DNA of 64,000 nt, taken from contig JAJDCX010000053.1 in assembly GCA_029260615.1 (NCBI GenBank), positions 1-64,000 on the forward strand, read 5' to 3'. The notes under the pieces were generated by a model. That model was not told the origin of the DNA. It saw only the letters and a program-made list of their open reading frames with translations, and searched no databases. Below, piece after piece: positions 24,720-44,961 of the stretch (positions within the stretch are counted from its first letter, which is position 1; the number at the start of each line of letters is the position of its first letter). The DNA comes from Phycisphaeraceae bacterium. GTDB taxonomy: Bacteria; Planctomycetota; Phycisphaerae; Phycisphaerales; Phycisphaeraceae. Both the position numbers and the translations under genes were made by a program.

Positions 24720-25847
24720 TTATTGAGGCTGGTTTGTGCGGGTGGCGTGTTTAGCTAATTCAACCCAATACGGGCTCTTGTTTAGTTGTAGTTGGAAGTC
24801 TTCGGCAAATAGTTCTTTGCCCGGGCGGTCGGTGGGCCAGGACTCGTCGAGGAATTGCCAGGCGAGGTCGGTGTGGCCGGTGTAGATGAGGTCGAGCATG
24901 GTGGACCAGAGTGCGGATGATGGCCAGAGTTGTTCGTTGTTGGTGAGGCTTTGGTGGACTTGGTGTGCGAGTTGGTTCCATTGCTCGGGCGGTGGCGGTG
25001 GGGCGGCCATCAGATGGGGGGCGGTTCGGTAGGTGGTGCCATCGTATTGAAGCACGATGCGTGGTGCGGGGGATGATGCGAACGAGGTGTTCCAGTAGGC
25101 GAAAGTCCAATCGTGTAGGGATACTTCAAGATCGCCATCGCCGTCAATATCTGTAAAGTCCGCGTTCCCATGGGCGGGAGTGATTCGTGCGATTTCATTG
25201 GCCGAACCATCTTGTATGTCAAACAGGATGTGTTCGGTGCAGCAGTGTGCGCCGCCGGAGTAGGTAGTGATAATGACGTTGGGGCGTCCGTCGTCGGTGA
25301 TGTCTTCGCCCATGCCTATGTGGGAGTCGTCGGGCAGTCGGGCTCCCAGTTCAATCCGGTAGTCTGTCAGTTCATAGAGGGTGTTCGATCCGCTTTTAAT
25401 TCTGCAGATGGTGTCGTAGTTCCAGTCACGTCGATCGGAGTAGATGCCGAATGTAACTTCGTTGATCCGGTGGTGAGCGATCTGCTTCATGGGGGAGAAG
25501 TAGTAGATCGGGCCGTAGTAGGTGTAGTAGACCCAGCCGTAAACTCTGACACGTCGCTGAACGACGAACAGGGGCAACGCGATAGCGAAGAGCAAGCTGA
25601 GTAATGCGGTTTTGTAGTGTCGTCGTATCTTGCCGGGGCGGTCACGGCGGATGGGGGTGTGTCCGCATTCGGGGCAGGTTTGAGAGATGCCGCCGGTGAG
25701 GTCGTACCAGCACTTGGGGCAGCGGGGTCTGCCATCGGGTTTGCTGGGGAACAGGGCCCGGCAGGTCATGGTCAGGCCCGCCACAAACAGCAGCAGGGCC
25801 AGTATTCGCCCGCTCCAGGGGGCCATCCATGGCATGAGGTCAGACAT
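24720..25847 (-). CDS. zinc-ribbon membrane protein with extracytoplasmic VCBS/FG-GAP-like domain
   Basis: A 375-residue protein. One membrane helix (about 13-31), a zinc ribbon CPKCWYDLTG...CPECGHTP (about 43-63) and a second helix (about 80-95) are followed by a large domain. That domain contains TDDGRPNVIITTYSGGAHCC and DFTDIDGDGDLEVSLHDWTF, calcium-loop-like repeats as in FG-GAP/VCBS proteins. The ribbon lies between two helices, so it is probably cytosolic and the large domain outside. Function unknown. The stop lies 16 bases beyond that of the convergent protease gene. Similar CPxC...CPECG proteins occur at 18.2, 31.2 and 36.7 kb. Confidence 0.75.
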   Translation of the reverse strand: MSDLMPWMAPWSGRILALLLFVAGLTMTCRALFPSKPDGRPRCPKCWYDLTGGISQTCPECGHTPIRRDRPGKIRRHYKTALLSLLFAIALPLFVVQRRVRVYGWVYYTYYGPIYYFSPMKQIAHHRINEVTFGIYSDRRDWNYDTICRIKSGSNTLYELTDYRIELGARLPDDSHIGMGEDITDDGRPNVIITTYSGGAHCCTEHILFDIQDGSANEIARITPAHGNADFTDIDGDGDLEVSLHDWTFAYWNTSFASSPAPRIVLQYDGTTYRTAPHLMAAPPPPPEQWNQLAHQVHQSLTNNEQLWPSSALWSTMLDLIYTGHTDLAWQFLDESWPTDRPGKELFAEDFQLQLNKSPYWVELAKHATRTNQPQ

Positions 25848-25898
25848 GGCTGTGAGTTTAATTCAATTGATATGGGCCGTCAGCCGATGGGAAAAGGG

Positions 25899-25928
25899 TT
25901 GACATCGGTCATCCAGATGTCGTACACT
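25899..25928 (+). promoter_or_regulatory. promoter of the leuA leader
   Basis: A perfect TTGACA at 25899-25904, an 18-base spacer and TACACT at 25923-25928. Transcription should start at about 25935, only about 3 bases before the leader ORF's ATG, so the leader would be read from an almost leaderless transcript. Confidence 0.65.
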
Positions 25929-25937
25929 GAGTAACTC

Positions 25938-26021
25938 ATGAACCACCGGACCGCTATTACCGCCGCGAATAAGCTTGCAGGGCTGCTAGGTAGCCTCGAG
26001 CTTATGGCACGCGCCGGATAG
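25938..26021 (+). CDS. leucine-rich leader peptide of leuA
   Basis: A 27-codon ORF: MNHRTAITAANKLAGLLG then SLELMARAG and a TAG stop. Five Leu codons fall within ten codons (25974-26003; CTT, CTG, CTA, CTC, CTT). It lies between a promoter and a terminator upstream of leuA. The stop codon lies inside the 5' arm of an antiterminator stem. This is the arrangement of ribosome-mediated transcription attenuation: stalling at Leu codons when charged tRNA-Leu is scarce would leave the antiterminator arm free, while completion to the stop would mask it. Inferred from sequence; no ribosome binding site is seen. Confidence 0.7.
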   Translation: MNHRTAITAANKLAGLLGSLELMARAG

Positions 26022-26084
26022 GGTCTTGCGAAGGTTTAGTTTGTAACCAACCGCCCTGTCTGGCTTGAGCCGACAGGGTTTTTT
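26013..26084 (+). promoter_or_regulatory. leuA attenuator: antiterminator and terminator alternatives
   Basis: GCCGGATAGGG at 26013-26023 can pair continuously over 11 positions with CCCTGTCTGGC at 26054-26064 (two G-U pairs); a further U-G pair extends it to 26024/26053. The second segment is the whole 5' arm of the terminator hairpin, so the two structures exclude each other. The antiterminator arm covers the leader stop codon at 26019-26021. Confidence 0.7.
26054..26084 (+). terminator. intrinsic terminator (attenuator) upstream of leuA
   Basis: CCCTGTC(T)GGC, a TTGA loop and GCCGACAGGG form a 10-bp stem with one bulged T, followed by six T. leuA starts 70 bases further on, so this terminator must be bypassed for leuA expression. 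Confidence 0.85.
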
Positions 26085-26091
26085 ATTTGGA

Positions 26092-26118
26092 GCGGTTAGC
26101 CGTTAGCCTTTAGACAGA
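26092..26118. repeat. TTAGCCG / TTAGCCT low-complexity patch
   Basis: GGTTAGCCGTTAGCCTTTAG between the attenuator and leuA; similar text occurs upstream of dprA (4421-4462) and upstream of nusB/ftsY (52852-52875). Confidence 0.4.
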
Positions 26119-26153
26119 CAATAGCCGTGGTGGCTTAGCGATGGAGCATGATG

Positions 26154-27800
26154 ATGAGCGATTCCAGTGACCAAAATGTTGCCCCCGAAAACAACCCCGC
26201 ACCCGGTGGTGTGGAGCGCACCCCGATCCGCATCTTCGACACGACGCTGCGTGACGGGGAGCAGTCGCCGGGCGCGAGCCTGAACCATCAGGAGAAGATG
26301 GAGATCGCCCGTCAGCTTGAGGCGCTGGGTGTGGATGTGATCGAGGCGGGGTTCCCGATCACAAGCCAGGGTGACTTCGAGGCGGTGGGTGCGATCGGCA
26401 AGGAGCTGGACAGGGCGATCGTGGCGGGGTTGTCCCGCTGTGTGCCGCGCGATATTGATCGTGCGGGGGAAGCGCTCAAGGGCGCGAATAACCCGCGTAT
26501 CCATGTGTTTTGCGCGACCAGTCGGATCCATCGTGAGCACAAACTCAAGAAGGCGTTCGAGGAGATCGTTACGCTGTCGGTTGATTCGGTCAAGCGTGCC
26601 CGACAGTTTGTGGATGATGTGGAGTTCAGCCCGGAAGACGGGTCTCGGACGGAATTGAATTACCTGGTCGATGTCACGGCGGCGGTTATCGAGGCCGGGG
26701 CGACGACTGTAAATATCCCCGACACGGTGGGGTACGCGGTCCCCGAGGAGTATGGCCACATCTTCTCCTATGTCCGTGAGAAACTCCCGCAGATCGCCCG
26801 TGATGGGATTTATCTTTCGTCGCACTGCCACAACGACCTGGGGTTGGCGGTTGCGAACTCGCTGGCGGCGGTAGCTGGGGGTGCGCGTCAGGTCGAGTGT
26901 ACGATCAATGGGATCGGTGAACGTGCGGGGAATGCGTCGCTTGAGGAGTTTGTGATGGCGTTGCGCACACGGTCTGATTACTACAAGCAATACGAGACCG
27001 GCATCGTCACGAAAAAGATCTTCCCGATCTCCCGGATGGTTTCGAGTCTCACGGGCCTGCAGGTGCAGCGGAACAAGGCGGTCGTGGGGGAAAACGCTTT
27101 TGCGCACGAGGCGGGTATCCATCAGGACGGGATGCTCAAGAACCGTAACACCTACGAGATCATGGACCCGACCTCGATCGGTGTGCCCGAATCTAAATTG
27201 GTTTTGGGTAAGCACTCTGGTCGACACGCGTTGGGGGATCGGATTACCGAGTTGGGCCATTCATTGGACGGCGAGACACTGGACAAGGTGTATGAAGCGT
27301 TCAAGGCCCTGGCCGACAAGAAGAAGGATGTCTATGACGAAGACATCGAGGCGATCCTGGATGAGCAATTGGCGACCGGCCGACGGCTGTGGGAACTGGT
27401 GCGTTTCCAAGTTACCAGCGGCACCGGCGTGATCGCGACCGCGACGATCGTGCTGCGAGATTCATCGGGGACCGAGAAGACCGACGCCTCAACCGGTGAC
27501 GGCCCGATCGACGCCTGCTACTCCGCTGTTCAACGGATCACCGGGGTCAAGGTTACGCTCGAAGACTACCAGACCCGCGCGATCACCGGGGGCAAGGATG
27601 CCCAGGGCGAGGCCACGGTTCAGGTCCGTCACCACGACCGCAAGGTTCGTGGCCGGGGCTTGAGTACGGACGTGATCGAGGCGGCGGTGAAGGCGTATCT
27701 TTCGGCGATCAACCGGATCAAGACCACCGAAGAACGAAAGGTCAACGCAACGATGATGAACGGGGATGCGGCGTCCACGGGTAAGGCGGCGCAGCCATGA
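26154..27800 (+). CDS. leuA: 2-isopropylmalate synthase
   Basis: First committed step of leucine synthesis: acetyl-CoA plus 2-oxoisovalerate gives 2-isopropylmalate. About 548 residues. The catalytic TIM barrel (about 20-290) has FDTTLRDGEQSPGASL (metal and base residues), SRCVPRDI, SHCHNDLGLAVANSLAAV (two metal His) and GIGERAGNASLEE. The linker has EAGIHQDG. The C-terminal part (about 395-530) is the leucine-sensing allosteric domain, with GTGVIATATIVL and GDGPIDACYSAV. GGAG at 26143-26146 best serves the third of three consecutive ATGs, at 26154; 26148 is possible. It is preceded by a leader-peptide attenuator and overlaps a GNAT gene by 4 bases. Confidence 0.96.
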   Translation: MSDSSDQNVAPENNPAPGGVERTPIRIFDTTLRDGEQSPGASLNHQEKMEIARQLEALGVDVIEAGFPITSQGDFEAVGAIGKELDRAIVAGLSRCVPRDIDRAGEALKGANNPRIHVFCATSRIHREHKLKKAFEEIVTLSVDSVKRARQFVDDVEFSPEDGSRTELNYLVDVTAAVIEAGATTVNIPDTVGYAVPEEYGHIFSYVREKLPQIARDGIYLSSHCHNDLGLAVANSLAAVAGGARQVECTINGIGERAGNASLEEFVMALRTRSDYYKQYETGIVTKKIFPISRMVSSLTGLQVQRNKAVVGENAFAHEAGIHQDGMLKNRNTYEIMDPTSIGVPESKLVLGKHSGRHALGDRITELGHSLDGETLDKVYEAFKALADKKKDVYDEDIEAILDEQLATGRRLWELVRFQVTSGTGVIATATIVLRDSSGTEKTDASTGDGPIDACYSAVQRITGVKVTLEDYQTRAITGGKDAQGEATVQVRHHDRKVRGRGLSTDVIEAAVKAYLSAINRIKTTEERKVNATMMNGDAASTGKAAQP

Positions 27801-28369
27801 GTGTATTATCCCCCGGGGTGGTCACGTTGCGCGATGGCCGGGAGGTAACGGTCCGTTCCGCAGTCCCTGAAGATGCCGAGGCGGTGATCCGTTACCTAGA
27901 AATCGGCCAACCGGAATTCACGAAGTATGTGGTGTCTGAACCCGATGAGTTCAACATTACTGCTGAACAGGAACGAGACTGGATATTGGCTCAAGAGCAT
28001 GCAACAGGGGCGATGGTCTTGATTGCAGAAGCCGCAAAAGAGGTTGTCGGTTTGCTTAACTGTAGCGTTCAATCTCGTCGCCGCATAGCGCACGTCGGCC
28101 AGATTGGCATGACACTACGCAGGGCGTATTGGGGTTCGGGACTGGGATCGGCGATGATGACACTGCTGATTGAATGGGCTCAGGCTCATCCGGTGTTGGA
28201 GATGCTTCAGTTGTCGGTCTATGCGGACAACCACAGGGCGATCAGGCTGTATCGTAAGTGCGATTTCGTGGAAGCCGGGCGTCTGCCTGGGCGCACGAAG
28301 TTTGGGCCGGGCGAGTACAAGGACGATCTGATCATGTGCCGCCGGGTCGACGGGGGTGACGAGTCATGA
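27797..28369 (+). CDS. GNAT-family N-acetyltransferase
   Basis: A 190-residue acetyl-CoA-dependent acetyltransferase of the RimI/YjcK type. The acetyl-CoA binding motif A is HVGQIGMTLRRAYWGSGLG (the R-x-x-x-G-x-G turn), followed by the helix SAMMTLLIEWAQAHP. Motif B covers LSVYADNHRAIRLYRKCDFVEAGRLPG. The substrate is unknown. The start overlaps the leuA stop by 4 bases (ATGA), and the stop overlaps the next acetyltransferase start likewise, so leuA and both acetyltransferase genes form one tightly coupled unit under the leuA attenuator. Parts of the gene are somewhat less GC-rich than leuA. Confidence 0.88.
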   Translation: MSVLSPGVVTLRDGREVTVRSAVPEDAEAVIRYLEIGQPEFTKYVVSEPDEFNITAEQERDWILAQEHATGAMVLIAEAAKEVVGLLNCSVQSRRRIAHVGQIGMTLRRAYWGSGLGSAMMTLLIEWAQAHPVLEMLQLSVYADNHRAIRLYRKCDFVEAGRLPGRTKFGPGEYKDDLIMCRRVDGGDES

Positions 28370-29508
28370 ACTTCACTTACCGGGTTGATGACGAGATCTC
28401 GCTTCGTTTGATCGAGCCCCGGCACGCCGAGGGATTGTTTGCGTTGGTGGATGCGAATCGTGATGTGTTGTTGCCTTGGATGCGGTGGGTGAATGAGGTG
28501 ACGGACGCCGAGGTGTTGCGTGGGATGATCGGTCAGTGGGTTGCGCAGACGGCCGAGACCGGGTGCATGAGCCTGGGGATCGAGTTGGATGGGGAATTGG
28601 TGGGGGTGGTGTTTCACATTCGGCCGGACTTGGTGAATAAGCAGGTGGAGGTTGGGTATTGGCTGGCGGCGTCGGCGCGGGGCAGGGGGGCGGCGATCCG
28701 TGCTGTGCGTGCGATGTTAGATATGACGTTTCGTGACCCGGGTTTTAATCGTGTGAACGTTCGCGTTGCGCCGGGGAACACGGCGAGCTTGGCGTTGGCC
28801 GAACGACTGGGGCTGACCCGGGAGGGTGTGACGCGGCAGGCTTGGCTTGCTGACGGCAGGTATTGTGACGCGGTCGAGTTTGGTGTGTTGGCCCAGGAGT
28901 GGGAGGTGACGTCGCCGGCGTTTTCGTTGACCTGTCGAGTCGATACTGGTTTAGAATTGCGTGTTTTGGAACCGCGTCATGCGAATGAGTTATATATGCT
29001 GATCGACGCCAACCGAGATCACATTGGTCGTTGGATGCCTTGGTGTACGCAAGGGTATGGTCTGAAGGATGCCGAGATATTTATCCAAGGAAACCTGGCC
29101 GGTTTGGTGAAGGGTCTTGGGATGACGCTGGCGATGGTTTATCAAGGCGAACTCGTAGGTGGAATCGGCAATCAGCCGGTGGATGTGGTTAACCGTAGCG
29201 CGGATATCGGATACTGGTTGGCTGAATCGGCGCAGGGCAACGGGATCGTGACCCGGGCAGCCCGGGCGATGGTGGATTATTCATTGGTCGATATGGGGCT
29301 AAATCGGGTGACGATTCACACCGCCACTGAAAACAAACGTAGTGCAGCGGTGCCCGAGCGATTGGGATTCGGGCTCGTAAGTGTCAGGCGGCAGGCCGAA
29401 GCGTTGAACGGCAAACAGGTGGACCAGATTGAGTATGCCATGCTGGCGGATGAATGGACGGTGGGTCAAGAGGGGGTGACAAGGCCCGATAACCCGTTAA
29501 CCCCTTGA
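28366..29508 (+). CDS. tandem two-domain GNAT acetyltransferase (RimJ/RimL type)
   Basis: A 380-residue protein made of two homologous acetyltransferase domains. Domain 1 (about 1-180) opens with ISLRLIEPRHAEGLFALVDANRD and has motif A VEVGYWLAASARGRGAAIRAVRAML. Domain 2 (about 190-365) repeats it: LELRVLEPRHANELYMLIDANRD and ADIGYWLAESAQGNGIVTRAARAMV. Both keep the Q/R-G-x-G-type acetyl-CoA loop, so both may be active. RimJ/RimL relatives acetylate N-termini of ribosomal proteins or small molecules; the substrate here is unknown. The tandem arrangement most simply reflects duplication and fusion. It overlaps the previous gene by 4 bases. Confidence 0.88.
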   Translation: MNFTYRVDDEISLRLIEPRHAEGLFALVDANRDVLLPWMRWVNEVTDAEVLRGMIGQWVAQTAETGCMSLGIELDGELVGVVFHIRPDLVNKQVEVGYWLAASARGRGAAIRAVRAMLDMTFRDPGFNRVNVRVAPGNTASLALAERLGLTREGVTRQAWLADGRYCDAVEFGVLAQEWEVTSPAFSLTCRVDTGLELRVLEPRHANELYMLIDANRDHIGRWMPWCTQGYGLKDAEIFIQGNLAGLVKGLGMTLAMVYQGELVGGIGNQPVDVVNRSADIGYWLAESAQGNGIVTRAARAMVDYSLVDMGLNRVTIHTATENKRSAAVPERLGFGLVSVRRQAEALNGKQVDQIEYAMLADEWTVGQEGVTRPDNPLTP

Positions 29509-29629
29509 ACCGATCTTCAGCCCGCCGCGTATAAAGGGCTGTGAAGCAGGGGATTGGGTGAGTGACGCCCAGCCCGTAAGACTGCCCTAGAATGAACCGA
29601 TACTTACCTTAGAGGGGAAGCCCGGACCT

Positions 29630-31072
29630 ATGAGTACTACGACACGACCTGCGGCGATCGGAGAAACCCAGTTGCCTACGACCGACCAGGGCCGTGATAA
29701 AACGGTCAAGCACTTTGTGTTGGACACCAACGTCCTGCTGCACAATTCTGCGGCGTTGTACATGTTTGACGACAACGAGGTCGTGATCCCGTTCACGGTC
29801 CTTGAAGAGTTGGACAAGTTCAAGAGCATGAACGACGACAACGGGCGATCCGCGCGCGAGGTGATCCGGCAGTTGGATCGGCTGCGTGCCAAAGGCCATC
29901 TGACGCAGGGCGTGAAGTGGAACGGGCACGGTGGGCGGATCCGTGTTGAGTTTGCGGTGGAGGATCGGCCTAAGTGGCTCAAGGAGGATGTGCCGGACAA
30001 CCGGATCATCGGCGTGGCCTGGGGGCTCAAGGAACGGGGGCTGCGCACCGTCCTGATTACCAAAGACATCAACGTCAGGCTCAAGTCCGATGCACTGGGT
30101 ATCCAGACTGAGGACTTCGAGGCCCAGAAGGTCGATAGCGACCGGTTGTATGCCGGCTATATTTCGTTGGATGTGCCGTCCTCGATCATCGACACGCTGT
30201 ATGAAGAGAAGCTGATCGAGACTCACGAGCTCGCCCCGCACCTGATCCAACACACCGAAGATGGCGAAGAGATCAAGCACGAATTGCATGCCAACCAGTT
30301 CCTGATTCTCAAGGACCCGGTGGATGAATCGCATACGGGGATCGCGCGGAGGTTGGCTGACACGGATCACGCGATCCCGATCCACGGCCCGCGTAAGCCG
30401 GTGTATGGGATCATGGCACGCAACGTCCAGCAGACCATGGCGATGGACCTGCTATTGGATGACGAGGTCAAGCTGGTCACCCTGCTGGGCGCAGCGGGCA
30501 CGGGCAAGACGCTGATTGCCCTTGCCGCGGGGATGGCCAAGACGTTTACCGAGAAGCGTTACGACAAGATGCTCGTTGCGCGGCCGATCATGCCTATGGG
30601 TAAAGACATCGGTTACCTGCCGGGTGACAAGGACGAGAAGCTTTCCGCCTGGATGCAGCCTATTTTTGACAACCTTAGTTACCTGTTGTCGACGCGGGGC
30701 GCGGGTGCTCAACACGCCGACTCTAAGCCGGCCGAGCAGCGGATCAAGTCGATGATGGAGACCGGGCAGCTCGTGCTTGAGCCGTTGACCTATATCCGTG
30801 GGCGGTCGATCCCGCATCAGTTCATGATTATCGACGAGGCGCAGAACCTCACGCCTCACGAGGTCAAGACGATTGTCTCACGGGTCGGCGAGGGCACGAA
30901 GATCATCCTCACCGGAGACGTCGCCCAGATCGACAACCCGTATCTGGACGCGTCGAGCAACGGCCTGTCCTACATGATCGAACGGCTTAAGGGCCAGGCG
31001 ATGGTGGGCCACGTTACGTTAGCTAAGAGCGAACGCAGCGAGTTGGCGAGCATCGCGGCGGACAAGCTGTAA
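29630..31072 (+). CDS. PIN domain / PhoH-like ATPase fusion (YlaK type)
   Basis: A 480-residue protein. The N-terminal PIN ribonuclease domain (about 25-165) has HFVLDTNVLLHN, EELDKF and a later acidic pair in VLITKDINVRLKSD, so the metal-binding acidic residues are present. The C-terminal PhoH ATPase (about 260-480) has Walker A LLGAAGTGKTLIALAAG at about 283-299, VARPIMPMGKDIGYLPGDKDEKL, Walker B FMIIDEAQNLTPHEVKTI and the sensor ILTGDVAQIDNPYLD. Such fusions are thought to couple RNA unwinding with cleavage. It stands alone with a 120-base upstream gap. Confidence 0.93.
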   Translation: MSTTTRPAAIGETQLPTTDQGRDKTVKHFVLDTNVLLHNSAALYMFDDNEVVIPFTVLEELDKFKSMNDDNGRSAREVIRQLDRLRAKGHLTQGVKWNGHGGRIRVEFAVEDRPKWLKEDVPDNRIIGVAWGLKERGLRTVLITKDINVRLKSDALGIQTEDFEAQKVDSDRLYAGYISLDVPSSIIDTLYEEKLIETHELAPHLIQHTEDGEEIKHELHANQFLILKDPVDESHTGIARRLADTDHAIPIHGPRKPVYGIMARNVQQTMAMDLLLDDEVKLVTLLGAAGTGKTLIALAAGMAKTFTEKRYDKMLVARPIMPMGKDIGYLPGDKDEKLSAWMQPIFDNLSYLLSTRGAGAQHADSKPAEQRIKSMMETGQLVLEPLTYIRGRSIPHQFMIIDEAQNLTPHEVKTIVSRVGEGTKIILTGDVAQIDNPYLDASSNGLSYMIERLKGQAMVGHVTLAKSERSELASIAADKL

Positions 31073-37854: not shown

Positions 37855-38970
37855 ATGACAGTACCTCTTTTAGACCTAAATCGGCAGCACGAAACCCTTA
37901 TGCCCCAGCTTCGGCAGGTGTTTGAGGAGGTGACCCGTTCCGGCCAGTTTATCCTCGGCAAATACGTCCAGCAGTTCGAGCAGGAACTGGCGGCGTACTG
38001 CGGCGTCAAGCACGCGATCGGGGTCTCTTCGGGGACCGACGCACTGCTGGTGTCACTGCTGGCGATGGGGATCGGCCCCGGCGATGAGGTCATCACCACG
38101 CCGTTCACCTTCTTCGCCACCGCGGGCTGTATCGCCCGGGCGGGTGCCACGCCGGTGTTCGTCGATATCAACCCCCGTACTTATAACCTCCAGGCCCAAG
38201 ACATCCAGGGGGCGATCACCAAGAAGACCAAGGCGATTATGCCGGTCCATCTATACGGGCTCAGCGCCAATATGGACGCGATCATGGAGATTGCCCAGGC
38301 GAACGGCTTGAAGGTGATTGAAGACGCAGCACAGGCGTCCGGTGCGCGTTACCACGACAGGCCGGTCGGGTCGATCGGAGACGTGGGCTGTTTCAGTTTC
38401 TATCCGACAAAGAATCTTGCGGGGATGGGTGACGGTGGGGCGTGTGTGACCAATGACGATGAGTTGGCAGAGAAGCTGCGTCAGATGCGCAACCACGGCG
38501 CCGACCGGGCCGACCACTTCCCAAGTGTTGGGGGCAACTTCCGTCTGGACGGCTACCAGGCCGGGTTCCTGAGTGTGAAGCTGCCGCTGTTGGATAGCTG
38601 GTGCGACAGCCGCCGCGAACACGCCGACCGATATGGCCGAGAGCTCGAAGAGGTGGCGATCACCACGCCGTTCGAGAGCCAGAACCGCCACCACGTCTAC
38701 AACCAATACACGGTGCGTGTCCGTGGCAAGGGGATGCGTGACGGGCTGCGTCACCACCTCACCGCGTGTGGGATCGGTTGTCGTATTTATTACACCCGGC
38801 CGCTGCACCTTCAGCCGTGCTTCGCGGATTTGGGGTACACCCCCGGCAGCCTGCCCTTCGCCGAGGAGGCGTGTGAGCAGGTGCTGAGCCTGCCGTCGTT
38901 CCCGGAGATGACCACCCAGGAGCAGGACGAGGTGATCGCGTGTGTCAGTGACTTCTTTCTCGCCGAGTGA
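37855..38970 (+). CDS. DegT/DnrJ/EryC1/StrS-family sugar aminotransferase
   Basis: A 371-residue PLP-dependent aminotransferase that converts nucleotide-linked keto-sugars to amino-sugars for surface glycans or secondary metabolites. Typical blocks are VPLLDLNRQH, IGVSSGTDALLVSLLAMGIGPGDEVITTPFTFFATAGCI, PVHLYGLSANMDAI, VIEDAAQASGA and SFYPTKNLAGMGDGGACVT, whose Lys forms the Schiff base. The end has YYTRPLHLQP. The sugar substrate is unknown and no other glycan genes adjoin. Its TGA is immediately followed by the GTG of the mlaF-like gene. Confidence 0.92.
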   Translation: MTVPLLDLNRQHETLMPQLRQVFEEVTRSGQFILGKYVQQFEQELAAYCGVKHAIGVSSGTDALLVSLLAMGIGPGDEVITTPFTFFATAGCIARAGATPVFVDINPRTYNLQAQDIQGAITKKTKAIMPVHLYGLSANMDAIMEIAQANGLKVIEDAAQASGARYHDRPVGSIGDVGCFSFYPTKNLAGMGDGGACVTNDDELAEKLRQMRNHGADRADHFPSVGGNFRLDGYQAGFLSVKLPLLDSWCDSRREHADRYGRELEEVAITTPFESQNRHHVYNQYTVRVRGKGMRDGLRHHLTACGIGCRIYYTRPLHLQPCFADLGYTPGSLPFAEEACEQVLSLPSFPEMTTQEQDEVIACVSDFFLAE

Positions 38971-42258: not shown

Positions 42259-43617
42259 CTACCGCCCCCAACCGCCTTTAGCTTCGCCGTCGTCGTAGTC
42301 GCCGACGATGACCGCGGTGCTGCCCATCGCGTGGAACTGATCTAGTTGGCGTTTGCCGATGCGGATGGACATCGTGACGGTATCGTTTTCGTAGGTGCGC
42401 TCCAGCACGTTGGCGCGGTTCTCCAGGAAGTGGATCGCTTTGCCATCGGTGTTGGCTAGTTGAAGCTCCAGATCGACCATGCCCCCTCGGGCTTCACTGC
42501 GGACCGCGTCGAGTACCGCGTCCAGCCCGTCCTGCGTCTTGGCACTTAACGGGATACTCCCGGGATGCTCCTGTTGGAACACCAAGAGGTCTGCGTTATG
42601 CGTCAGCAGGTCGGTCTTATTCAACAGCAGCATCCGCTTGGGCTCGGTCGCGCCGATGTCGTCAAGCACATCCATCACCGTGCGGTACTGCTGCGCCGCC
42701 CGGGGGTGGGAGACATCCAACACCACCAGCAATAGGTCCGCGTGGATCGCTTCTTCGAGCGTGGCTTTGAAGCTGGCGACCAGGTGGTGGGGGAGGTTGC
42801 GGACGAAGCCGACCGTGTCCGAGAGCATCACCGCGTCGCCGCCGCCCATGTCCCACTTGCGGGTCCGTGTCGAGAGGGTGGCAAACAGTTTGTCATCCGC
42901 ATACGCCCCGCCGGCCTGTCCGCTGGCGGATTCGATCGTGGCGTTGAACACCGTGCTCTTGCCCGCATTCGTATACCCGACCAGGCAGACGGTGTAGAAG
43001 TCCTTGTTGCGTGCGTTGACCTCGCGGGTCTTGCGCCCCTGCACCTCTTTGATCTCGCGTTTGAGCTGCGCCTTTTTTCGTTGCACGATCCGGCGGTCGA
43101 TCTCAAGTTGTTGTTCGCCTGGCCCGCGTGTGCCGATCCCGACAGGGGAGCCGCCGGCGATCCGTTCGAGGTGGTCCCACATCGCACGCAGCCGGGGGTA
43201 GGTATATTCCAACTGCGCCAACTCGACCTGCAGCTTGGCCTCGTGGGACCGGGCTCGCGAGGCGAAGATGTCCAGGATCAGCTCGCTGCGGTCCAGCACC
43301 TTGCGTTCAACGACCTTCTCAATGTTCCCGATCTGTGACGGCGACAGGTCGTTGTCGAAGATGACGACCTGGGCGTCGTGGACATCGCACATGAGCTTGA
43401 GCTCTTCGACCTTCCCCTTGCCGATGAACGTCTTGGCGTTGGGCTTGCTCAGCTTCTGCATGAGTTGGTCGCAGCAGATCGCGCCCGCGGTATCGACCAG
43501 GGAGCGCAGCTCCGCCAGTGGGTCGTGTGGGTCCGACCCGTCATTGGGCAGCAGGGCCACGACAAGGATCGCCCGCTCCTGCTGCACCGCCAGTTGTTCT
43601 CGTTGCATCTGCGTCAT
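42259..43617 (-). CDS. hflX: ribosome-associated GTPase HflX
   Basis: A 452-residue GTPase that splits and rescues stalled ribosomes. The HflX N-terminal domain (about 15-190) has FIGKGKVEELK, VVIFDNDLSPSQ, VLDRSELILDIFASRARSHEAKLQVELAQLEY and GGSPVGIGTRGPGEQQLEIDRR. The G domain has G1 GYTNAGKST, G3 DTVGFVRNLPHHLVASF, G4 LLNKTDLL and G5 SAKTQDGLDAV. The C-terminal domain (about 380-452) is longer than in minimal HflX. The gene is transcribed alone, divergent from the Y-family polymerase gene. Confidence 0.96.
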   Translation of the reverse strand: MTQMQREQLAVQQERAILVVALLPNDGSDPHDPLAELRSLVDTAGAICCDQLMQKLSKPNAKTFIGKGKVEELKLMCDVHDAQVVIFDNDLSPSQIGNIEKVVERKVLDRSELILDIFASRARSHEAKLQVELAQLEYTYPRLRAMWDHLERIAGGSPVGIGTRGPGEQQLEIDRRIVQRKKAQLKREIKEVQGRKTREVNARNKDFYTVCLVGYTNAGKSTVFNATIESASGQAGGAYADDKLFATLSTRTRKWDMGGGDAVMLSDTVGFVRNLPHHLVASFKATLEEAIHADLLLVVLDVSHPRAAQQYRTVMDVLDDIGATEPKRMLLLNKTDLLTHNADLLVFQQEHPGSIPLSAKTQDGLDAVLDAVRSEARGGMVDLELQLANTDGKAIHFLENRANVLERTYENDTVTMSIRIGKRQLDQFHAMGSTAVIVGDYDDGEAKGGWGR

Positions 43618-43709
43618 AGACGGGCCATTCTAGCGGGGGTTGGGGGGCAGGGGTTCGCGGTTAAGGCTTCGGGTGCAGGGGTCGGCCTGATGGGGCTTTT
43701 TCACAGCCC

Positions 43710-43738
43710 TTGACGAGCCTATTTGTACGGTATATGTT
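43710..43738 (+). promoter_or_regulatory. promoter of the Y-family polymerase gene
   Basis: TTGACG at 43710-43715, 17 bases, TATGTT at 43733-43738. The predicted start of transcription is 1-3 bases before the ATG at 43747, so the message is probably leaderless. GGTAT occurs twice (43729, 43740) but no known LexA box is evident. Confidence 0.5.
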
Positions 43739-43746
43739 AGGTATTT

Positions 43747-44961
43747 ATGGGCCCCCTCAAATACCTTTTTCTGGATATGAACAGCTACTTCGCGTCGGTG
43801 GAGCAGCAGGACCGCCCGGGGCTGCGAGGTCGGCCGGTGGGGGTGGTGCCGACGATGGTGGCGACGACCTGCTGCATCGCCGCCAGCTACGAGGCCAAGG
43901 CGCTTGGGGTGAAGACCGGGACCGGTGTGCGGGATGCTCAACGGCTGTGCCCGGATATCCGGCTGGTCGAGGCCCGGCCGAAGCGCTACGTCCAGTGTCA
44001 CCACCAGATCGTCGAGGCGGCTGAGTCGTGCCTGCACATCGACCAGATCCCATCCATCGACGAGATGTACGGCCGACTCTTAGGCAGCGAACGCCAGCCC
44101 CAGCGTGCCGCCGAGATCGCACACGCCGTCAAGGCCGCCATCCGTAGCCGGGTCGGCGCGTTTGTCCGCTGCTCGATCGGGTTGGCACCGAATCCCTGGC
44201 TCGCCAAGGTCGCCACCGACCTGCAGAAGCCCGACGGCATGGTCATGATCCTCCCCGAACAGATGCCCGAAAAAATCTGCACCCTCAAACTCACCGACCT
44301 CCCCGGCATCGCACGGGGCATGCACACCCGCCTTCAATGCCACAACATCCACACCGTCGCTCAACTCTGCTCACTATCCAGGCAACAGATGTCGGCCATC
44401 TGGAAGAGTGACGTGCTGGGTTCGTTGTGGTGGCACCAACTCAACGGCCACGATCTGCCGTACCGCCGGACCCATCGGCGGACGGTGGGGCACTCGCATG
44501 TGTTGCCGCCGAAGTGGCGCACCGATGCCGGGGCCCGGGCGGTGTCGGTCCGCATGATCCACAAGGCCGCCGCGCGGATGCGCCGCATGCACTACGTCGC
44601 CAGCCACCTCACCGCGAATGTCCGTTACCTGGATGCCCCAAAATGGAAACGCAGGGCACCGCTAGGGCTTTGTGGGGATACCCTGACCATGCTGCGCGTC
44701 TTCGCCGAACTCTGGCGTGACAAACCCCTGGGTTCACCGTTGCAGGTCGCGGTCCAGCTTGATGGCCTGGTTCCCCTGAATACCGCCCCCATCCCGCTAT
44801 TTGATGAACCCCGCCACCTCGCCGACCTGGCTGACGCCATGGACCGGATCGACCACAAGTTCGGCCACCACAGCATCTACTTCGGCTCGATGTTCGGTGC
44901 CCAGTCCACCGCCCCGACCCGCATCAGCTTTACCCAAGTCCCGGGGGAGGAGGAGTTTTAA
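43747..44961 (+). CDS. Y-family DNA polymerase (DinB/UmuC-like)
   Basis: A 404-residue translesion polymerase-like protein. The first catalytic block is FLDMNSYFASVEQ (metal-binding Asp10; Phe as steric gate); the second is SIDEMYG (Asp and Glu present) where most family members read SIDExxLD. The fingers region has AASYEAKALGVKTG. A helix-hairpin-helix follows in LTDLPGIARGMHTRL. The three metal-binding acidic residues are therefore intact. The C-terminal little-finger part (about 245-380) is divergent, so bypass specificity cannot be told. No imuA, dnaE2 or umuD gene adjoins. It is likely expressed from a leaderless message. Confidence 0.85.
   Translation: MGPLKYLFLDMNSYFASVEQQDRPGLRGRPVGVVPTMVATTCCIAASYEAKALGVKTGTGVRDAQRLCPDIRLVEARPKRYVQCHHQIVEAAESCLHIDQIPSIDEMYGRLLGSERQPQRAAEIAHAVKAAIRSRVGAFVRCSIGLAPNPWLAKVATDLQKPDGMVMILPEQMPEKICTLKLTDLPGIARGMHTRLQCHNIHTVAQLCSLSRQQMSAIWKSDVLGSLWWHQLNGHDLPYRRTHRRTVGHSHVLPPKWRTDAGARAVSVRMIHKAAARMRRMHYVASHLTANVRYLDAPKWKRRAPLGLCGDTLTMLRVFAELWRDKPLGSPLQVAVQLDGLVPLNTAPIPLFDEPRHLADLADAMDRIDHKFGHHSIYFGSMFGAQSTAPTRISFTQVPGEEEF

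Follow-up and report, generated by a model that had tools for sequence, protein, structure and literature searches.

Ribosome-mediated attenuation is a classical form of gene control. The leu, his and trp attenuators of the Proteobacteria combine a leader peptide rich in the end product, an intrinsic terminator and a rival antiterminator, and the leuA leader described here is built likewise. A 2010 survey (PMC2965389) gives leader-peptide systems as known only in the Proteobacteria and Actinobacteria, to which it adds the Firmicutes. For Streptomyces lividans, one study (PMC8079986) describes leader peptides (leuL, trpL, ilvL and thrL among the names) that precede leuA, leuS, trpE, trpS, ilvBHC and thrS and were mapped as leaderless transcripts; one of the two Leu leaders, apparently that of leuA, is given there as being without a typical terminator, as are the leuA leaders of other Actinobacteria. 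Most actinobacterial leuA genes carry a LEU pseudoknot element, according to another paper (PMC1262725), and in Corynebacterium glutamicum leader peptides are described before trpE, leuA, ilvB and aroF (PMC3890552). A paper on the Planctomycetes (PMC4833913) treats, in its first third, only leader-gene distances, and no title or abstract among the open-access matches listed in our literature search deals with attenuation in Planctomycetes.

The locus considered here lies in a stretch of 64,000 nucleotides from a Phycisphaeraceae bacterium (assembly GCA_029260615.1, contig JAJDCX010000053.1, positions 1 to 64,000 of the forward strand), hereafter the window. Compared with the proteobacterial attenuators, its leuA leader has no Rfam match at the gathering score, its start would be near-leaderless (judging from promoter spacing) whereas theirs are Shine-Dalgarno driven, and the 5' arm of its antiterminator contains the leader stop codon, a single antiterminator helix sufficing when only the downstream RNA is folded. 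From the actinobacterial leuA leaders, as far as the cited sources describe them, it differs in having a U-tailed terminator and a covarying antiterminator; the presence of that terminator likewise separates it from the actinobacterial LEU element, in which the run of Leu codons pairs with the leuA Shine-Dalgarno site in a pseudoknot without a terminator. The original prediction had interpreted the region upstream of leuA as a leucine attenuator with a nearly leaderless leader peptide, an interpretation supported by the conserved parts and covarying stems documented below. We put at roughly 0.93 the probability that the leuA leader responds to charged tRNA-Leu by ribosome-mediated transcription attenuation on a near-leaderless mRNA.

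The leuA locus

The predicted elements of the locus, all on the forward strand, are as follows.

25899 to 25928, forward: sigma-70-type promoter (TTGACA at 25899-25904, an 18-nt spacer, TACACT at 25923-25928)
25938 to 26021, forward: leader ORF of 27 codons, ATG at 25938-25940, stop TAG at 26019-26021, peptide MNHRTAITAANKLAGLLGSLELMARAG
25974 to 26003, forward: Leu codon cluster, five Leu in ten codons
26013 to 26024, forward: antiterminator 5' arm, which includes the leader stop codon (26019-26021), assessed by covariation and a permutation test
26053 to 26064, forward: shared arm, serving as antiterminator 3' arm and terminator 5' arm
26054 to 26084, forward: intrinsic terminator (stem 26054-26078, T-run 26079-26084), assessed by covariation
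26148 to 27800, forward: leuA, 2-isopropylmalate synthase (Pfam HMGL-like and LeuA_dimer; NCBIfam NF002086)
27797 to 28369, forward: GNAT acetyltransferase, its start overlapping the leuA stop (27797/27800)
28366 to 29508, forward: double GNAT acetyltransferase, its start overlapping the previous stop (28366/28369)

The leuA product scores 762 bits against NF002086, for which the cut-off is 532. LeuA proteins of named relatives are at most 58% identical to it, in a collection that may omit records near the window, and since the four best matches are all planctomycetal, placement in the phylum Planctomycetota would fit the LeuA matches. A simple scan found no promoter or terminator in this run of overlapping genes; the same scan misses the leader's own terminator, as we read it because no bulge was allowed. 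Homologues of one or both acetyltransferases lie near leuA in 12 of 34 other loci, seven of which (L033-L039) are without downstream DNA, and support for the acetyltransferase genes sharing a leucine response, as they may, is weaker than that for the leuA leader.

Conservation of the leader ORF and its Leu codons

Among 61 genomes searched, the window's own included, 37 have a close LeuA (>700 bits), and the exclusion of two at contig ends (L017 and L032) leaves 35, own included, with upstream DNA. A short ORF with Leu codons precedes leuA in all 35, at distances of 96-424 nt from the end of the ORF to about LeuA residue 26. Direct reading of the sequence confirms the predicted 27-codon ORF with five Leu codons in ten, the Leu residues falling at codons 13, 16, 17, 20 and 22. 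When ATG starts only were considered within 450 nt upstream, at least five Leu in ten residues were found in 28 of the 35 leaders, compared with none on the reverse strand and a shuffle mean of 0.5; three of the leaders are weaker, namely L029 (4 Leu in 24 codons), L031 (3 Leu in 20 codons) and L039 (GTG start, 15 codons). Leu accounts for 25% of codons in the leader frame and for 8.5% and 4.6% in the other two, such that the enrichment of this upstream ORF in codons for the end product is both conserved and frame-specific. The five leaders available from the own genus share Leu at all five positions even as the codon differs at four of them, and many non-Leu residues vary. CTT and CTA make up 30% and 13% of the Leu codons in the 35 leaders versus 9% and 5% in seven window genes, and TTA/TTG are rarer (6% versus 30%), in a comparison that is rough because the leaders are drawn from many genomes.

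Promoter and predicted near-leaderless start

The TTGACA/TACACT promoter of the original prediction is present as described, with the leader ATG beginning 9 nt past the -10 box. Alone it is weak evidence (1 site versus 0.5 expected); the same -35/-10 layout precedes the leader in relatives. A search blind to amino acids, which demanded only an ORF of 8-60 codons whose start codon follows a -35/-10 pair at 4-12 nt, returned an ORF in 35 of 35 upstream regions and exactly one in 34; an ORF with at least three Leu in ten was returned in 34 regions. The reverse strand gave 1 such ORF (Leu-rich 0) and shuffles a mean of 3.0 (Leu-rich 0.8). In L008, whose stretch is truncated at the promoter, the search settled on a different ORF, the true promoter being visible in a separate reading. 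The decisive evidence above chance is conservation, not the promoter alone.

With any distance from 0 to 60 nt allowed, a best promoter could be assigned to 34 leaders (none for L008), and in all 34 it is still only 6-12 nt away from the start codon, which is too close for a Shine-Dalgarno site if transcription starts where expected; a Shine-Dalgarno-like word precedes the start in one leader, L004. From this spacing we infer that the leader start is near-leaderless. The original prediction had put the ORF about 3 bases after the transcription start, of which the close spacing holds throughout these relatives and the figure itself depends on an assumed start near 25935.

Terminator, antiterminator and covariation

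The terminator stem pairs 26054-26060 with 26072-26078 and adds an inner GGC/GCC, for -18.1 kcal/mol, so that a predicted intrinsic terminator separates the leader ORF from the first gene. A U-tailed terminator occurs in 34 of 35 leuA leaders, L039 being the one without, and the terminator originally placed at 26054-26084 is thus borne out by stem, T-run and conservation, and by the covariation given below. It would not serve the ORF at 24720-25847, taken as the next gene upstream and without a Pfam match, because that ORF is on the other strand. The competing helix, predicted as an alternative pairing of 11-12 bp, joins 26013-26024 to 26053-26064 through 12 pairs that include three G-U pairs, for -22.5 kcal/mol; as had been claimed, it uses up the terminator 5' arm and spans the stop codon. 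Shuffled sequences did as well in 0 of 300 cases in one run and in 1 of 300 in another, and folding of the leader gave z = -2.9, with 2 of 200 shuffles equally good.

Covariation was assessed in a 34-row alignment; L039, having no terminator, was left out of it and of the permutation and folding tests. In the terminator helix 94.8% of cells are paired and five of eight pairs have changed on both sides, a number reached by 0 of 500 shuffles. In the antiterminator helix 80.2% of cells are paired, and 26 cells have changed on both sides against a shuffle mean of 9.0 (0 of 500 reach this); 6 of its 12 pairs show a double change, a number that 81 of 500 shuffles reach. For both helices, none of the 500 shuffles and none of the slid controls attains the covariation score, the slid controls falling far short in pairing as well as in score. 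Pairs around the stop codon mostly vary little and hence say little about structure. Swapping terminator arms between genomes weakens the antiterminator, from a mean of -17.4 kcal/mol with own arms to -15.3 kcal/mol when permuted, and none of 20,000 permutations was as good in a set of 30 genomes in which one own-genus row was kept and four of five were left out. Taken singly, eight of the 30 leaders (L015, L020, L022, L023, L029, L031, L035 and L036) fail to beat their own shuffles (31-197 of 300 as good), and six further leaders are marginal (13-22 of 300). The original prediction had called for an alignment of upstream regions and was to be given up if relatives lacked a conserved ORF, Leu codons or competing stems; the alignment shows leader ORF, Leu codons, promoter spacing and both stems to be conserved, with both stems covarying.

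Folding models of the switch

Two models addressed whether the leader would switch. In the first, an equilibrium folding of the whole leader with a ribosome mask, the window's own leader did not switch, its terminator staying at 0.88 or above at every ribosome position tested. With the ribosome at the main Leu cluster, 9 of 34 leaders switched, 24 were unchanged and 1 went the wrong way; at the best single Leu codon, the terminator dropped in 25 of 34. As a modelling outcome, this speaks either against the attenuation reading or against equilibrium folding as the model.

The second model, attempted after the first, folded only the RNA downstream of the ribosome, a choice made because the ribosome has already passed the upstream RNA, and because the terminator 3' arm is the last part to be made. 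The leading edge of the ribosome lies 15 nt past the first P-site base, and this geometry was used. For the own leader, the modelled terminator stands at 0.99 with the ribosome at the stop codon and the antiterminator at 0.63, 0.95, 0.96 and 0.79 with the ribosome at Leu 13, 16, 17 and 20, the terminator still winning at the last Leu codon, 22 (0.85). These own-codon values come from a table ending at 26085 and differ from those of the 34-leader test, in which the RNA stops at the terminator end. In the latter, stalling costs the terminator in 30 of 34 leaders and in none acts the opposite way; four (L020-L023) do not switch and L031 is borderline. The locus has an antiterminator exclusive of the terminator that a ribosome at the stop codon would mask, yet the first model shows no switch for the own leader.

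Other amino-acid leaders in the same genome

The finding is larger than first stated: the putative leuA attenuator is one of about six candidate amino-acid leaders in the genome. Searching this genome for a strict leaderless-promoter pattern gave 27 matches, the leuA leader among them, versus 7 in a backward control, and the siblings of the leuA leader are these.

thrS leader: Thr, MLNTTTTTTTTPTLG..., with a run of eight Thr; found by the leaderless-promoter pattern
DAHP synthase leader: aromatic (Phe/Tyr/Trp), MRQRSFFFGYFWF...; found by the leaderless-promoter pattern
ilvB leader: Val, ...VRVVVVVS; found by the leaderless-promoter pattern
citramalate synthase leader: Ile, MPHAAAIIIEITIQSSPR; found by covariance model R1
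ileS leader: Ile, MSAELPISIAQIIIHSPGTR; located by using the IleS of a relative as query

Citramalate synthase, DAHP synthase and the relative's IleS score above their NCBIfam cut-offs; thrS and ilvB, with partial queries, score below. Recurrence in relatives was counted without regard to promoters, as an ATG ORF within 400 nt upstream that has at least five matching residues in ten, own genome included and with one ileS locus left out whose match starts inside the gene. Such ORFs precede thrS in 13 of 30 loci (reverse strand 0), DAHP synthase in 19 of 22 (reverse 0), citramalate synthase in 16 of 25 (reverse 2) and ileS in 6 of 29 (reverse 1); the count for ilvB with Val, Ile and Leu taken together, 21 of 23 (reverse 5), is weak because these are common residues. 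With a promoter required, the counts are 9 of 30 for thrS, 20 of 25 for citramalate synthase (at least four Ile), 20 of 23 for ilvB (Val/Ile/Leu together) and 4 of 22 for DAHP synthase, whose near-leaderless start is thus indicated in few relatives.

Five of the six own leaders (leuA, citramalate synthase, ileS, thrS and DAHP synthase) have a U-tailed terminator, and in four of these five the antiterminator is above shuffles, that of thrS being matched by 49 of 300. No U-tailed terminator was found at the ilvB leader of the own genome; a GCGG..CCGC hairpin directly follows the stop in 17 of 23 ilvB loci, and the leader ends in VVVS in 10 of 23. Since leaders followed by terminators also stand before citramalate synthase, ileS, thrS and DAHP synthase, this type of control would seem to be used habitually in the lineage. 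The thrS leader of S. lividans has two Thr (PMC8079986) where a run of eight is found here, and in C. glutamicum (PMC3890552), of a different phylum, a single genome has leader peptides at a comparable group of genes, to which citramalate synthase, ileS and thrS are added here.

Proposed mechanism and alternatives

In the scheme that we infer from the sequence, which covers start site, translation, stalling, termination and leucine response, transcription would start a few bases before the leader ATG, and the mRNA on which the leader is translated would be leaderless, or almost so, and have no Shine-Dalgarno site. When Leu-tRNA is plentiful, the first ribosome would reach the stop codon and cover 26013-26024, leaving 26053-26064 to pair with 26072-26078 as the terminator, and polymerase would halt at the T-run. 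When Leu-tRNA is scarce, the ribosome would stall at codons 13-20, and 26013-26024 would stay free to pair with 26053-26064 before the terminator 3' arm is made; leuA, and probably the two overlapping acetyltransferase genes, would then be transcribed.

The leader might instead act by another route, through Rho together with ribosome passage or through translational coupling, the terminator being a partial roadblock and the rival helix unimportant. The ilvB leader, which lacks a U-tailed terminator in this same genome, and the eight leuA leaders whose antiterminators are no better than shuffles would both be at home in such a scheme, which we nevertheless regard as unlikely in view of the near-universal U-tailed terminator of the leuA leaders, the covariation of the antiterminator and its preference for its own arm. 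A small functional protein as the product of the short ORF, with the hairpin merely the terminator of that ORF, would agree with the presence of the ORF in every genome with upstream DNA and with its having its own promoter; we consider this very improbable, since peptide lengths vary (15-31 aa), peptides outside the genus are alike mainly in Leu runs and often in the end encoded by the antiterminator arm, and other genes of the genome carry other amino acids at the same place. Equally remote is a small-molecule riboswitch or T-box, for although a leader RNA and terminator do precede a biosynthetic gene, the conserved parts are Leu codons and two helices, no Rfam family reaches its gathering score in the window (the leader itself giving only two matches, far below that score), and the Rfam scan found no T-box covariance match in the whole window.

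Distribution in the class and phylum

The attenuator reading was followed outward in a class sample of 298 genomes, in which LeuA was found at E 1e-150 or better in 142 (143 places). Fifteen of these places belong to the own order; 76 of the other 128 were read and 71 could be evaluated, the remainder having no leuA part in the stretch (L377, L384, L387 and L398) or only 46 nt (L385). At least five Leu in ten residues occur upstream of leuA in 49 of the 71 (reverse strand 2, shuffles 1.6). Under strict filters covariance model R1 reaches E 1e-5 in 18 genomes of this sample, 13 of them from the own family or a single sister family; among the other five, the match in G346 is just upstream of its own leuA and those in the remaining four lie elsewhere. 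The leader RNA is thus recognisable mainly among close relatives. R1 matches at E of about 1e-5 to 1e-3 that by eye resemble gene-end terminators, and two tRNA genes (L207 and L208), were set aside.

A phylum sample had LeuA at E 1e-120 in 44 of 149 genomes, and 11 of the 28 loci examined outside the own order pass the Leu-cluster test (reverse strand 1, shuffles 0.6). In some of these phylum loci the leader is preceded by a Shine-Dalgarno-like AGGAG (L150 and L151), and in others it looks leaderless (L164 and L174). Among 80 named loci, 22 were read, with candidate Leu-rich short ORFs in a few (e.g., L041, L042, L062 and the Verrucomicrobia record L072). We think it probable, at a level of confidence clearly below that for the leuA leader itself, that genes for amino-acid synthesis and aminoacyl-tRNA synthetases in this lineage of the Planctomycetota are under a network of attenuators, ribosome-mediated and near-leaderless (leuA for Leu, citramalate synthase and ileS for Ile, thrS for Thr, DAHP synthase for Phe/Tyr/Trp and ilvB for Val), with the leader stop codon inside the antiterminator, and that the leuA leader is long established in the class and extends to further Planctomycetota, in some of them with a Shine-Dalgarno-like site.

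Implications

The kind of system is known, leaderless leuA leaders having been described in Actinobacteria, and its presence in the Planctomycetota appears to be new. A conserved set of such leaders in this phylum, if true, would point to an earlier origin of attenuation or to more frequent origins, and would show attenuation to be repeatedly paired with leaderless initiation. Since ribosomes have to load on the leader within a few bases of the 5' end, these genes would offer a direct test of whether leaderless initiation tightens transcription-translation coupling, and they yield testable predictions of nutrient control in the Planctomycetota.

Leaders upstream of other amino-acid genes

Outside leuA, short ORFs rich in particular amino acids, each a proposed ribosome-mediated attenuator leader, lie upstream of the following genes in the same genome (G000; C, contig; L, locus read).

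G000:C57, about 29531-29774 (L235 / L245): Thr-run leader MLNTTTTTTTTPTLGTTDAPGVWAVAC, 5' of thrS
G000:C77, about 38700-38910 (L002 / L320): Ile-rich near-leaderless leader MPHAAAIIIEITIQSSPR, 5' of the citramalate synthase gene
G000:C34, upstream of 157149 (L456): Ile-containing leader MSAELPISIAQIIIHSPGTR, 5' of ileS
G000:C69, about 25874-26149 (L239 / L275): aromatic-rich leader MRQRSFFFGYFWFTRTRAALGTE, 5' of DAHP synthase
G000:C59, about 43526-43830 (L236 / L297): Val-rich leader ending in VVVVVS, 5' of ilvB

The citramalate synthase and ileS leaders are both accompanied by a terminator and an antiterminator, and those of thrS and DAHP synthase carry a terminator. When short ORFs with an ATG start were counted in the 400 nt upstream of each gene (own locus included, no promoter required), at least five Ile codons in ten were found at 16 of the 25 citramalate synthase loci, and Thr runs at 13 of the 30 thrS loci, some of them from other families within the order. 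Aromatic-rich ORFs precede DAHP synthase at 19 of 22 loci, but a near-leaderless promoter was detected at only 4 of the 22.

Leu leaders and leaderless-type promoters elsewhere

The relative G021 matches the leuA leader covariance model strongly at a second site besides its own leuA (G021:C202:26384-26472, L178; leader MTTSPSTFAAGLKLPELLGLLARVG). In distant families of the class (f8, f9 and f93; L410-L425), the Leu leader, judged by eye, often has LLLLRR or a similar sequence at its end, after which comes a stretch of GGCGC or GCGC with no obvious U-tailed terminator.

Within the window, a leaderless-type promoter at 43710-43749 has its ATG at the start of a 404-aa ORF (N-terminal MGPLKYLFLDMNSYFASVEQQ) that resembles a Y-family DNA polymerase.

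The ilvB leader

The ilvB leader lacks a U-tailed terminator, and a GCGG..CCGC hairpin lies directly 3' of the leader stop codon in 17 of 23 ilvB loci; its mechanism possibly differs from that of the other leaders.
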